From NCBI GenBank assembly GCA_013285405.1, contig CP053446.1, positions 2,465,001 to 2,529,000 of the forward strand: DNA of 64,000 nucleotides, given 5' to 3'. The position numbers were made by a program, and so were the translations under genes. The notes under the pieces are model-generated. The model worked only from the letters and a program-made list of their open reading frames with translations. It did no database searches and was not told where the DNA came from. This document shows positions 39,372 through 44,473 of the stretch, in pieces. The number at the start of each line of letters is the position of its first letter. Within the stretch, counting starts at the first letter, position 1. The DNA comes from Ignavibacteriota bacterium. Lineage in GTDB: Bacteria; Bacteroidota; Ignavibacteria; Ignavibacteriales; Ignavibacteriaceae.

Positions 39372-39412
39372 TTGACAATATCAAATCAAAAATCTATGTT
39401 CTCAGTGAGAAC
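39372..39412 (+). promoter_or_regulatory. Candidate promoter with overlapping palindromic operator
   Basis: TTGACA (39372-39377), 17 bases, TATGTT (39395-39400), then the perfect 15-bp palindrome GTTCTCAGTGAGAAC (39398-39412) across the -10 and start region. It lies upstream of the three-gene secreted cluster. It does not follow the TTG-N20-TAnnTTTG pattern, so a different sigma factor or chance is possible. Confidence 0.35.
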
Positions 39413-39473
39413 AAAAAAATATTGTAAATGTAATACAAAATGAAGCCTTTATGGGAGAAATTCAAAAACATAA

Positions 39474-41834
39474 TACTCGCTGCTTGACAAAAAAAGAATC
39501 ATTGTTATCTTACCATCAACCATCAACCATCAACCATCAACCATCAATCTCTTAATCTTTTTACTTTTATCTTTAATCTTAATTACACCCACGCTTAACG
39601 CACAAATAAAAATTGAAGAACGAGTAGAGATAAATCCAGAAGAATCAAAAACAATAAACCCAGCACAGAGCGGATGTGTGTTTGGAAATTGTTCTTACTA
39701 TGATTGCGATTCGAGCCAGATATATATCCACTTCACACCTGCATCAGTAGAACCGGGAGGTTCGACCATAATAAAACTATGGATTACACCGAATCAATAT
39801 GAATATAACGAAGATAATTATGATATTCTTCAGAAAACGATAACCATAGAGCCAGAATGCGGGCAGTTAACTTATCTTGGAGGAGGAGAATATCTTTTCA
39901 CAGCACCTGATACACTCACAGTTGACTCTACAGTTGTTATAATAAACTATGAAAACTACAATCAATTCTGTGCAAGGTGGAATGCAGAGGGAGAAAGAAT
40001 GATAGTTAAAGATAATTTTGATTGCATAAACTGTCCGATGCCATTATTTAACATTCTGCAGAGAGACTACGCGGCAGAACAACTCACAATTAAGTGGGAC
40101 AGTCTTTTTGTGGAAGTAAGCCCAACAGAATTATTCCCCGGCGATACGGCTGATATAAATATAAAGAAACGATTACCTGATGGAACACTAACGGATTTTG
40201 ATACGACACAAACTTTTGAAGCAGCAATGCTTGAAGGTTGTACACTTGGAAACATTTTAGTTGATGACAGTATTGATGTATATTTTTATGATATAAACCA
40301 GCCGATAAAATTTGTTGCAGATACAACAGCAGATAGCACAGGATTAGTATTATTAAGAATTGGTTTAGTTGAAGAAATCGCAATGTTAAAAAGTAATAAT
40401 GATGAAGATGTTTTATTTGATTGTCTGCCGGGACCACCACAGACTTCGAATTATGCAATTGTACAAGCATATATAAATGAAGAACCAACTATACTGCTTG
40501 GAGAGACAAAATATTACCAGGCAAGATATAAAACAGTTGATGAATTGATGATTGAAGAAGCCCCCGTTGATGCAAATGGAATTCCTTACCTTGATGGAGG
40601 ATTGTCTGAAGATGTTTGGGGTAATAATCCTGTAACAGTTATTGATACTTGTAATGATTGTGCTAAGAAAATGGGTGTTTACTGGGAGAAAAAATATCCA
40701 ACGAATGAATTTGAAAATGTCCCCATCGATGTGAAAGGCAAAACATATAATCATAGTATCATTAAAATGAATCCATTACAGTCCGGATTGATTAGGTTAG
40801 TTGGTAGATACTGGGATAAAGATTCAACTTATTTTATAACATTAAAAGCAAAAAGGGAGAATGGAGATTCTGCACAAATACAAATAAAGATTGTGAAGCC
40901 ATCTATGATATGGAATGGACAAAATTCTTCATTTGAAAAAGCGAAAGATGTACTTAATAATACTGTAAATATAGATTCACTATGTATTTTTTATGGGGGC
41001 ATACATGGTATTCCTCCTCAATTAATTAAAGGACAAATGTTCACGGAATCAGCGAAAACATATTTCAATTCATTGTCAGATTCCGGATTTGCGCCATCTT
41101 ACAGGTTTGAACCGTTTACGACTCAATATGAGCCAAATTATAAGACAAACCCTAAATATAATAGTTATTATATCTATGACTCTACTTACACTTATCCTAA
41201 TATGCCAACACATTACAATGTCCAATTAATTAATTATCCATCTCAAATTTATACCGTTTGGGATATGGTGAAAAATTATTCTAAACTAGTAAACCCGAAC
41301 CCTGATGTGAATTATTATGGTGGAAGAAATTCTACCACTCACAGAGTTTGGCTCGGTTACACAGTTGTCGATACTATTTATACAAGAATTGCGAATGAAT
41401 TTGCTGAGTTGTATCCCGAGTTAACTAATGTTCAGAAATATGATTCTACGAATAATAAAATGATTGATTTTTTGAAAAACGAATGGACCAGAAATGATGC
41501 ACCCAAGGGAACTAAAAATAATATTGCACAAACTCGAGTCGCAAGTTCTTACGGATTAGCCCAATTTTTATATGGAACAGCACGTGACATCGGTTATCCT
41601 AAGGAGGACGTTCCTGAGAATATTAATTTGATGAATTATGTGTACCTCTTTTATAAAACTCAAAAAAAATATTTGTGCGATGGATTAGGAATTAATGTTG
41701 AAAGTAGTAATAATTGGTCAGAGGGTTATGAGCATTCTTTTTGTAAATGGATATACGATTCTAAATGGAATCCCTATGATTTGGTATATTCAAAAAAAAT
41801 TATCAACAATTCAAAAAGATTTTTCCCACAATAA
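39474..41834 (+). CDS. Secreted protein with C-terminal lytic-transglycosylase-like domain; start unresolved
   Basis: The frame is open from 39474 to 41834 but has no ATG, GTG or TTG before GTG 39678, although codons from 39549 encode a typical signal-peptide core (LLIFLLLSLILITPTLNAQ). The start must lie upstream of, or within, the (CCATCAA)5 tract. The mature protein has N-terminal beta-sandwich domains with several cysteines. Its C-terminal 280 residues resemble an SLT lysozyme-like domain: GIPPQLIKGQMFTESA with the candidate catalytic Glu, then SSYGLAQFLYGTARDIGYP. It would cut peptidoglycan or a similar glycan. It is the first of three secreted proteins in one direction. Confidence 0.7.
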   Translation, partial: YSLLDKKRIIVILPSTINHQPSTINLLIFLLLSLILITPTLNAQIKIEERVEINPEESKTINPAQSGCVFGNCSYYDCDSSQIYIHFTPASVEPGGSTIIKLWITPNQYEYNEDNYDILQKTITIEPECGQLTYLGGGEYLFTAPDTLTVDSTVVIINYENYNQFCARWNAEGERMIVKDNFDCINCPMPLFNILQRDYAAEQLTIKWDSLFVEVSPTELFPGDTADINIKKRLPDGTLTDFDTTQTFEAAMLEGCTLGNILVDDSIDVYFYDINQPIKFVADTTADSTGLVLLRIGLVEEIAMLKSNNDEDVLFDCLPGPPQTSNYAIVQAYINEEPTILLGETKYYQARYKTVDELMIEEAPVDANGIPYLDGGLSEDVWGNNPVTVIDTCNDCAKKMGVYWEKKYPTNEFENVPIDVKGKTYNHSIIKMNPLQSGLIRLVGRYWDKDSTYFITLKAKRENGDSAQIQIKIVKPSMIWNGQNSSFEKAKDVLNNTVNIDSLCIFYGGIHGIPPQLIKGQMFTESAKTYFNSLSDSGFAPSYRFEPFTTQYEPNYKTNPKYNSYYIYDSTYTYPNMPTHYNVQLINYPSQIYTVWDMVKNYSKLVNPNPDVNYYGGRNSTTHRVWLGYTVVDTIYTRIANEFAELYPELTNVQKYDSTNNKMIDFLKNEWTRNDAPKGTKNNIAQTRVASSYGLAQFLYGTARDIGYPKEDVPENINLMNYVYLFYKTQKKYLCDGLGINVESSNNWSEGYEHSFCKWIYDSKWNPYDLVYSKKIINNSKRFFPQ
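39513..39547 (+). repeat. Heptanucleotide tandem repeat (CCATCAA)5
   Basis: Five perfect copies of CCATCAA, directly upstream of the signal-peptide core of the secreted SLT-like protein. Seven is not a multiple of three, so each gain or loss of a copy changes the frame. With five copies the ATG at 39451 runs to a TAA at 39553; with three or six copies it would continue into the signal peptide and whole protein. Confidence 0.9.
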
Positions 41835-41849
41835 AATTTGGTAAAGAAA

Positions 41850-43778
41850 ATGAAAAAATTAATGTTCTTATATGTAATCTTTTTAACTACTATTCAGTTT
41901 GCACAACCAGGTGTTACACAAGAAGAAATTGAAGAAATCAATGCAGCAATTGTTGCAAGTTGTGGGTCTGATTATGGAGCATCTGATATAATGAGTGTTA
42001 ATAGATCAAAAAATACAATGAGGCAATTCGGTTTCGAAGTAGTAGATACATATTCTACTTTGGAAGAATGTTTTATATTTTTGGCTTATACCCAAGATCA
42101 AGCAAACGATTTTAAATCAACTGGTATAGTTGGCATATATAGAAATCACACAATATTATGGAAAACTAATCCTGTTATAAAATGTTTTGATATGCGTAAT
42201 TCTGTGATAATGGGAGTTATGGATTTGAACTTAGATGGTAACATTGATATCATTACCTCTTGGAATAGTGGTTTCAGCGGAGGATTATCGGATATATGGA
42301 TCTTGAGCTGGAATGGAACAAGCGGTTGGTTTATTAATGATATTGATGAAGATAGTTCAAGTTCTGTTGGGGGCTTTACTGATGATATTGGAGTGCTGGA
42401 TAGAGATGGTGATGGAATTTCAGAGTTATGTGTTAGTGCTGGATGTTTTAGTTGGAATGGAAGTCTGTATGGGAACTGGGATAATCAGCCATTTCCTGAA
42501 ATCATTCCTAAAGATGCCTTAGATGCAGAAATTAATTGCAAAGTTGAGAAAGTATCCGGTAATTACAAATATTATTATAAGGTTAAAAATACTATCTCAA
42601 GCTTACAAAGAATTATACTATTCGGAATTGATGCTCAGACAGAAAATATTTCTGAATTTAATCAACCACTAGACTGGCACTTCTTTTTTAGGGGAGATGA
42701 AAATTTTATATGGGCTTTCATTGAGTCTCCAGAATGGAATTATCCTGAGGCATTTATTAAGCCTGGAGAAGAAAAAAACAATTATTTTTTCACTAGTTCC
42801 GGTCTTCCAAAAATTAATAATATTTATGTACAGGGTTATAATACAGAATGCGATTTAGAAATAGAACAGGTCAAATTAAATTCCTTTGTCACAAATACAC
42901 TATCTCCAAATAATCCTCCGGATTCACTCATCCAACTAGATTTCCTTGACACACTTTTAAACTACACCCAACGCTCCTTCGAACTCGGCTGGATAGCAAA
43001 CCAAGTGATAGCAGATAAATACGACAGCCTATTTGTCACAACAAAAACACTTCTTCAGGGTAATCATATTCCTTGGGTTGAGTACACACTTCAATCCGTG
43101 ATTGATGAATGCAATCAAGACAGTTCAGGAAATATTACAAGCGAAGCTTATGCATTATTAAGATACAACACTGAATATTTATTAGAACACCTTCCGGAGG
43201 CTATTCCACCAGTCTTAACTTCAATCACACCTCAGATGATATTGAGATATGTATCGGGAGGCAACCCACCAACCGGTTTAACTGTAACTGCAACAGGTGA
43301 GAACTTCTCTGATTCATCAATAGCTTATTTTAATGGTAGCGCAAAAACTACAACTGTAATTTCAGACACAGTTCTTACCTTTCCAATTACTGGCTCAGAG
43401 ATGTCAACTCTTGGTAGTCACCAAATATGGATTAGCACCTATGGAATCAATTCAGATATTTCTGGAATAAATGTAGTTGATAATCTTAATATATTGTTGG
43501 GGCTACTTGTACCTACTCTTCAATGTGTGAGAAATAATGGTGGAGGATCATACACAGCATATTTCGGATATGTTAATGATAACGGTGTAAGTATCTATAT
43601 ACCGATTGGCAGTAAAAACAAGTTTGTATCACTTCAAATTGACAAGGGACAACCAAAGCTATTTCTGCCTGGCACACATACAAATGTATTCAGTGTAAAT
43701 TTCAACGGAAAAAATTTAACCTGGACTCTGGATCAGGCAAGTGTAACAGCAAATAAGAACTCTACACCGTGTCCGTAA
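41850..43778 (+). CDS. Secreted protein with repeat-like propeller segment and IPT/TIG domain
   Basis: A 642-aa exported protein (signal peptide MKKLMFLYVIFLTTIQFAQ). Residues about 120-200 contain Asp-rich loops (MDLNLDGNIDIIT, LDRDGDGISELCV) of the FG-GAP/calcium-binding type. Residues about 455-555 form an IPT/TIG immunoglobulin-like domain (TSITPQMILRYVSGGN to GSHQIWIST). No T9SS sorting domain is present. ATG 41850 is 15 bases after the previous stop, so the cluster is co-transcribed. It may be a surface adhesion or binding protein; this is inferred from domains only. Confidence 0.8.
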   Translation: MKKLMFLYVIFLTTIQFAQPGVTQEEIEEINAAIVASCGSDYGASDIMSVNRSKNTMRQFGFEVVDTYSTLEECFIFLAYTQDQANDFKSTGIVGIYRNHTILWKTNPVIKCFDMRNSVIMGVMDLNLDGNIDIITSWNSGFSGGLSDIWILSWNGTSGWFINDIDEDSSSSVGGFTDDIGVLDRDGDGISELCVSAGCFSWNGSLYGNWDNQPFPEIIPKDALDAEINCKVEKVSGNYKYYYKVKNTISSLQRIILFGIDAQTENISEFNQPLDWHFFFRGDENFIWAFIESPEWNYPEAFIKPGEEKNNYFFTSSGLPKINNIYVQGYNTECDLEIEQVKLNSFVTNTLSPNNPPDSLIQLDFLDTLLNYTQRSFELGWIANQVIADKYDSLFVTTKTLLQGNHIPWVEYTLQSVIDECNQDSSGNITSEAYALLRYNTEYLLEHLPEAIPPVLTSITPQMILRYVSGGNPPTGLTVTATGENFSDSSIAYFNGSAKTTTVISDTVLTFPITGSEMSTLGSHQIWISTYGINSDISGINVVDNLNILLGLLVPTLQCVRNNGGGSYTAYFGYVNDNGVSIYIPIGSKNKFVSLQIDKGQPKLFLPGTHTNVFSVNFNGKNLTWTLDQASVTANKNSTPCP

Positions 43779-43816
43779 GTATTGTAAAATGTATAATTAA
43801 CAATTAAAAATTTACA

Positions 43817-44473
43817 ATGAAAAATAAATTATTCTTACTCGTACTCTTAATCTTACTCTTACTCAGAGAAAACTTTGCACAAAACATTTACGAAATCCAG
43901 CCGGGCACAAAAGGTAACGAGATAACACTAACGATTGCAAATATTTCAGAAACAAATCCTGCAGAAAATGTTAAAGTAAGGCCTCCCCAACCCCTCCAAA
44001 GGAGGGGCTTTCAGGAAGAGCCAATTACTTTTCACCAATCAGAGAAAATTATTGAGAGGATAGAACCAACAGAAGAAGCGGAAGTAACATTCACATTTGA
44101 TATAAGCAGAAATGTTTCAATTACAAAAAAAGATACAATTGAGTTTATGATAACAGATGCAAACGGACTGATGATGACAAAGACATTCATCTTCAGTTAC
44201 ATTGGTCCAAAAGAATTTAAGCTTGAGCAGAATTATCCGAATCCATTTAATCCAAGTACAGTAATCAGTTATCAGTTGCCGGTGATCAGTAAAGTATTGT
44301 TGAAAGTTTACGATATACTTGGCAGTGAAGTCGTAACATTAGTAAATGCAGAACAACAGCCTGGATATTATGAAGTTCAATTTAACGCAATGAACTATGC
44401 GAGTGGAATGTATGTTTATAGATTGCAAGCAGATAACTATTTATCTGTAAAAAAGATGTTGGTAGTTAAATAA
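43817..44473 (+). CDS. Small secreted protein with T9SS sorting domain
   Basis: A 218-aa protein with signal peptide (MKNKLFLLVLLILLLLRENFAQ), a beta-sandwich domain of about 100 residues and a C-terminal T9SS type A sorting domain (QNYPNPFNPSTVISYQLP to KKMLVVK). A short palindromic DNA element (43991-44007) is read in frame within residues 55-66. It ends the three-gene cluster and is the only member with the sorting domain, so it may act as the surface anchor for the other two; that is inference. Confidence 0.85.
   Translation: MKNKLFLLVLLILLLLRENFAQNIYEIQPGTKGNEITLTIANISETNPAENVKVRPPQPLQRRGFQEEPITFHQSEKIIERIEPTEEAEVTFTFDISRNVSITKKDTIEFMITDANGLMMTKTFIFSYIGPKEFKLEQNYPNPFNPSTVISYQLPVISKVLLKVYDILGSEVVTLVNAEQQPGYYEVQFNAMNYASGMYVYRLQADNYLSVKKMLVVK
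43991..44007. repeat. Palindromic element inside a coding region
   Basis: CCCCTCC-AAA-GGAGGGG, within a GC-rich island (about 43981-44013) quite unlike the surrounding AT-rich gene. It encodes RPPQPLQRRGF in frame. Similar CCCTCC/GGAGGG palindromes are normally intergenic. Confidence 0.55.

Follow-up and report, generated by a model that had tools for sequence, protein, structure and literature searches.

Phase variation by simple repeats has been described mainly in host-adapted pathogens, and one of its known forms is the promoter-spacer homopolymer switch of the Neisseria porA/opc type. In the opa genes of Neisseria gonorrhoeae, CTCTT pentamers lie in the coding sequence of the leader peptide (PMC3745409). 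Heptamers are used by neuO of phage CUS-3 in E. coli K1, a single acetyltransferase gene carrying 3–53 copies of AAGACTC; every third copy number gives the full-length product, and the gene was OFF in 65.6% of 64 complete genomes (PMC13001214). Heptanucleotides are also known in dispersed form, as TAACTGA in Beggiatoaceae and cyanobacteria and GGGAATC in Xanthomonas (PMC4679880, PMC4692102).

Here we analysed a 64-kb window, by which we mean the whole stretch of DNA under study, and a gene within it that looks like one member of an apparently phase-variable secreted family in uncultured Ignavibacteriota. As in opa, a multigene exported family carries, copy by copy, a repeat in the signal-peptide coding region whose unit is not a multiple of three, copy number restores or breaks the reading frame, and different members are found in different phases. 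Unlike in opa, the units are heptamers, an octamer or poly-C that vary between members, some relatives use promoter tracts instead, and the host is an uncultured environmental Ignavibacteriota. No homology to the Opa barrel was found, and the window protein matched no Pfam family at E values up to 1. With neuO the locus shares a heptamer array in the 5′ coding region, whereas the neuO repeat does not occupy a signal-peptide slot and does not belong to a multigene family. The dispersed heptanucleotides likewise form seven-base tandem units, but there a single sequence recurs at many, largely intergenic, sites, whereas in the present family the unit varies by locus and the position in the gene is fixed. 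Judged by sequence, members in four genomes (G027, G070, G126 and G095), with poly-G, poly-C or poly-T between promoter-like elements, resemble the porA/opc type. A full-text literature search returned no paper on phase variation or simple sequence repeats in Ignavibacteria; as far as we searched, the switch is of a known kind, and there is no earlier description of the family, of the lineage or of how repeat types turn over.

A heptamer array between the start codon and the signal peptide

The original prediction placed a heptamer repeat downstream of ATG 39451 and upstream of the signal-peptide core of a secreted protein; Tandem Repeats Finder recovered it as a perfect array, (ACCATCA)5.1, with period 7 and 100% matches, the top-scoring tandem repeat of the window (Table 1). 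Adjacent ACCATCA pairs with at most one mismatch have a chance expectation of 0.02 and occur only at this array, and the rest of the 3.86-Mb single-contig genome holds no other ACCATCA array of at least three copies. The array separates the ATG from the signal-peptide core of a 786-codon open frame (39474–41834, stop to stop). The earliest ATG, GTG or TTG in this main frame is GTG 39678, which lies within the mature protein, past the signal peptide. The frame from ATG 39451, by contrast, crosses the array and, with five copies, terminates shortly beyond it. When copy number was varied in silico from 2 to 8, ATG 39451 joined the main frame at 3 and 6 copies only, and 2, 4, 5, 7 and 8 copies left it out of frame. 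Translation and the copy series thus agree with what had been claimed for the locus, namely that the ATG frame stops at 39553 with five copies, that reading is uninterrupted at three or six, and that no conventional start precedes 39678 in the main frame. The ACCATCA unit itself is free of stop codons in all sense-direction frames. As in a contingency locus, a unit that is not a multiple of three lies in the 5′ coding region and shifts the frame of an otherwise intact gene.

The sequence TTGACA-N17-TANNTT occurs at 11 intergenic sites (196 kb) against one coding site (1.53 Mb) in this genome, and spacers other than 17 bases give 0–3 intergenic matches. Because this enriched arrangement falls exactly at the predicted promoter P1, the transcript start would fall ahead of ATG 39451; leaders of paralogs show the same promoter geometry. 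A TTGACA is also found directly 5′ of the arrays in all array-bearing members seen, despite their differing reading frames. We did not adopt this second TTGACA as the favoured main promoter of the window gene, since its spacer has 16 bases and the enriched spacer has 17. The start of the window gene, CTTTATGGGAGAAA, is similar to the family starts ATGGGAGAAAGC (G023) and ACTTTATGGG (G071/G072). No clear Shine-Dalgarno sequence was found before ATG 39451, in contrast to the paralogs L019 and L020. Downstream of the array, the window signal peptide aligns with paralog signal peptides ending AQ(V/I)xIKE(R/K)VEINP.

Table 1 Features of the window gene, with repeats at other genes and genomes discussed in the text
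Feature	Coordinates	Strand	Basis or remark
Predicted promoter P1: TTGACA (39372–39377), 17-base spacer, TATGTT (39395–39400)	39372–39400	+	Sequence reading
Start ATG 39451 and polar n-region (MGEIQKHNTRCLTKKESLLSY...)	39451–39511	+	Joined to the mature frame at 3 or 6 copies only
Second TTGACA, 16 bases, TATCTT, immediately 5′ of the array	39484–39511	+	Sequence; spacing of 16 is not the enriched one
Heptamer array (ACCATCA)5.1, proposed switch	39512–39547	+	Tandem Repeats Finder; chance and genome counts
Signal-peptide hydrophobic core and end (NLLIFLLLSLILITPTLNAQ), just 3′ of the array	39548–39605	+	Translation; paralog alignment
Stop codon reached from ATG 39451 with five copies (OFF state)	39553–39555	+	Translation; in silico copy numbers
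Mature secreted protein, about 744 residues, family domain at 40104–40376	39600–41834	+	Translation; profile A2
(GAATTTC)4.9, protein resembling a TolC-type outer-membrane protein	L189 16201–16234		n-region heptamer in another gene
(CCATCTA)2.6, lipoprotein	L189 18364–18381		n-region heptamer in another gene
(TCGCAAG)3.7, third gene	L176 11985–12010		n-region heptamer in another gene
Poly-G, G9/G8, in G027 paralogs L253/L254			Promoter spacer; one G apart
C8 in G070 (L264)			Promoter spacer
C9 in G126 (L244)			Promoter spacer
T18 in G095 (L261)			Promoter spacer

Repeats in paralogs and related genomes

A full-length paralog in the same genome, L010, shares 55% identity and lacks an array; both GTG and ATG starts lie in its frame. 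Two further paralogs, L019 and L020, carry CACTACT arrays of 3 and 5 copies at the same position as the window array. They share one leader, made up of promoter-like sequence, a GTGGAG Shine-Dalgarno sequence, an ATG and a lysine-rich n-region, MKRSLEKK(A/E)LDKQNKLSK. Both genes are out of frame, in different phases, and by arithmetic four CACTACT copies would open either one. Their flanks differ by 12 of 157 and 5 of 70 bases without gaps, and one array is exactly two units longer than the other.

In a related genus, g37, heptamer arrays occupy this slot in ten intact members from four genomes, behind a conserved Shine-Dalgarno sequence and ATG, so that the Opa-like placement of a repeat in the signal peptide extends from the window gene, L019 and L020 to these four genomes. 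Copies of the leader GTGGAGTAAAACTTTATG, always with TCGTTTC units behind them, number two in G069 (one of them with a single mismatch), two in G072 and six in G073; G071 has a shortened form of it, followed by TTCCGTC/T arrays. All (TCGTTTC)3 arrays of G069, G072 and G073 lie at family leaders or immediately 5′ of a signal peptide. In a single G072 copy cut by a contig end, the array stands directly before the signal peptide, and the leader of this copy was not recovered from either end of the G072 contig.

Within G072, the copies L077 and L078 have no mismatch in 226 flanking bases (156 before and 70 after the array), and their arrays differ by exactly four heptamer units. L077 is open from its ATG through the signal peptide into the mature protein and L078 is out of frame; one copy-number change therefore separates an open from a closed version. 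Similarly, L073 and L075 of G073 have identical flanks and arrays three units apart. Such identical flanks with unlike arrays indicate that the array is the fastest-changing part of these 5′ ends. Copies with identical flanks thus differ in copy number and stand in ON and OFF frames, a comparison between paralogs rather than alleles. The public record corresponding to G073 is CP053447.1, an Ignavibacteriota MAG, and copy numbers are equal in both, so the two records provide no independent variation.

Two others of the six array-bearing copies of G073, L107 and L109, are broken shortly past the signal peptide (ERVENKY and then a stop), so the leader and array also persist before dead genes.

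Beyond g37, the slot is occupied by other repeats. In G023, from another genus, an out-of-frame octamer array, (TTCAATCA)6.8, comes after the start ATGGGAGAAA, which almost matches that of the window gene; in G101, from another family, a C10 tract lies four codons after the ATG and is in frame. The unit lengths in the family slot are thus 7, 8 and 1, none of them a multiple of three. Members without a coding repeat often carry homopolymers between promoter-like elements instead (Table 1), and these are possible transcriptional switches, judged from their placement. C or G tracts of at least 8 occur at about 5 sites per genome in G027, 3 in G101, 7 in G070 and 17 in G126, giving a chance of 2e-4 to 1e-3 per 250-base window; with tracts this rare, five at this family are far beyond chance. 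Repeats are absent from several members, such as those of G021, G032 and G111, which makes the trait common and not universal. A (CCATCAA)3 array in G089 was set aside, as it sits in the reading frame of a membrane protein and not in a signal peptide.

Background frequency of arrays and selection on the genes

To set these arrays against their background we sampled this genome (864 kb), G011 (200 kb) and G073 (200 kb). The 864-kb sample held seven exact arrays of period 7, of roughly at least three copies, and none of periods 8–15, and the only arrays of periods 8–15 in any sample were two of period 14 in G011. Heptamer arrays are a real but sparse feature of this genome; the background of such arrays is about 0.007 per kb. 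Intergenic heptamer arrays with other units were seen at L200 and L202 in G011 and at L022 18442–18481 in this genome, so these genomes tend to expand heptamers quite generally. Heptamers also stand in the signal-peptide n-regions of other genes of this genome, at L189 and L176, all of them in frame with an ATG (Table 1).

All 8 signal-peptide heptamer units are stop-free in the sense direction, compared with 13 of the 28 orientations that other heptamers offer (P = 0.011), a pattern that translation of the units would predict. A unit of seven bases encodes one and the same seven-residue cycle in all three frames (TCGTTTC gives SRFSFLV); the peptide within the array is therefore nearly unchanged across states, and the exit frame alone changes. 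Purifying selection acts on the out-of-frame genes as judged by dN/dS, which is 0.06–0.29 in pairs that include out-of-frame members (for the window gene and L010 over codons 120–350, dN is 0.12 and dS 0.27), so the proteins are probably made at least part of the time. The members in frame are one with a heptamer (L077) and one with poly-C (G101). Among hepta- and octamer members 1 of 14 is in frame, below the one third of random phases (P = 0.027), for paralogs that are not independent of one another; a bias towards OFF, at P = 0.03–0.08, is a tentative reading, and the shortfall may be chance, selection for off or occasional use of another start.

Proposed switch and alternative explanations

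We favour, at a probability of roughly 85%, the reading that the array is a translational phase-variation switch operated by slippage of a signal-peptide repeat in a family of independently switched secreted proteins. That the family genes are turned on and off at random by gain or loss of repeat copies is very probable from the sequences compared, because related genes hold different repeats, in differing counts, in one slot. Transcription would begin at a promoter about 45–50 bases 5′ of ATG 39451, and translation from this ATG, the presumed start codon, would run through the polar n-region and the array into the signal peptide. Slipped-strand mispairing would add or remove 7-base units, and every such event would shift the reading frame, 7 not being divisible by 3. 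At five copies, translation would end after 34 residues with nothing exported; at three or six, the full signal peptide and secreted protein would be made. Members appear to be switched independently, by a heptamer, octamer or poly-C in the slot or by poly-C, poly-G or poly-T in the promoter spacer, and the model would entail populations of mixed copy number and a benefit to the cell. The original prediction of a heptamer phase-variation switch sequenced in its OFF state thus gains strong support from the comparison with paralogs and relatives. Counting against it, an array of five copies is short for rapid slippage, ATG 39451 lacks a clear Shine-Dalgarno sequence, the share of hepta- and octamer members in frame falls below one third, some heptamer arrays are intergenic and several members are free of repeats.

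The intergenic arrays, the few other n-region heptamers of this genome and the two broken G073 copies would suit a neutral microsatellite that forms readily in these genomes and is tolerated in signal-peptide n-regions, with the out-of-frame members, the window gene included, dead or dying. We consider this unlikely, as out-of-frame members retain long open frames at the low dN/dS given above, the slot of this one family is filled in different genera by unrelated repeats, and homopolymers, otherwise rare, stand at the promoters of relatives instead. Somewhat less likely again is that the array is an untranslated leader or tuner whose frame is irrelevant, the transcript starting from the second TTGACA or translation from a non-standard codon. 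The constant TTGACA 5′ of the arrays, the out-of-frame state of most members relative to the ATG, and the TTG of the second TTGACA, which is in frame with the mature protein in several g37 members, all fit such an arrangement. Yet the window gene has no ATG, GTG or TTG in the main frame before its mature protein, the spacer of the second TTGACA is 16 bases against the enriched 17, the Shine-Dalgarno and ATG leader is conserved in L019, L020 and g37, and L077 is open from its leader ATG through the signal peptide.

Ribosomal frameshifting on the array, whether programmed or leaky, could yield protein at every copy number, and a slip inside the array would barely alter the peptide, given the seven-residue cycle shared by the three frames. 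However, the units differ wholly between members, leaving no fixed slippery motif, and in G101 the slot is filled by an in-frame poly-C; we regard this explanation as very improbable. Least credible of all is a copy number made wrong by sequencing or assembly. Short tandem arrays can be miscounted, but the independent assemblies G000, G023, G069, G071, G072 and G073 all contain out-of-frame arrays, with different units and counts, and such errors would not put distinct repeats into one slot of one family.

A wider and more tentative view, to which we give a little under even odds, is that free-living Ignavibacteriota possess a clade-wide contingency system in which the family stays phase-variable over the long term, its repeats turn over and its members are biased towards off. 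Unrelated heptamers, an octamer or poly-C would come to occupy the slot anew, or switching would pass to the promoter spacer, and the off bias would mean that few members are made at once. A switchable secreted family in these uncultured relatives of Chlorobi and Bacteroidetes would, if real, point to strong fluctuating selection, with phages, predators, rivals or partners as its source, and comparison across the family offers a way to test how switch repeats arise, disappear and give way to others. For annotation pipelines, it would mean that such genes are called from an internal GTG or TTG, or as pseudogenes, with the signal peptide missed.

Secreted protein, family and gene cluster

A search of 164 genomes of the order with a profile of the 92-residue shared domain found the family in 37; a scan of genome contigs with the window protein itself as query returned no relative. 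Nor did the window protein match an NCBIfam family, and a PDB sequence search gave no credible relative. The C-terminal region of the mature protein is the part that had been called SLT-like, or lysozyme-like, from a reading of motifs. This label was not upheld, as Pfam, NCBIfam and PDB sequence searches contained no SLT or lysozyme match to the window protein. An ES pair and ASSYGxxQxLYxT are invariant in an alignment of two sequences, and a single-sequence model of the region reached a pLDDT of 33.8, too low for the model to be used. Pfam identified no type IX secretion C-terminal sorting domain in the window protein; in L018, the third gene of the paralogous cluster has such a domain (Por_Secre_tail, E 3e-9).

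A second secreted gene (41838–43778) and a third gene from about 43817 follow the family gene, and this cluster is repeated in the genome (window 39451–44400; L018; L010). The paralogs L018 79–1746, L018 4681–5919 and L019 904–3606 have the N-terminal and central domain in common and differ in their C-termini. HExxH-like motifs (AHERLH, AHENAH and IHESEH) are present in three paralogs, where the window protein has a different region. The paralogs may be secreted enzymes of one family whose ends can be exchanged.

Outside the family, a 12-copy TCGTTTC array lies between the ATG and the signal peptide of another secreted protein, L145 (G011 C1:2353500–2356500, at 1441–1525). Its mature sequence is unlike that of the family and its array is also out of frame, so this kind of switch architecture extends beyond the family.
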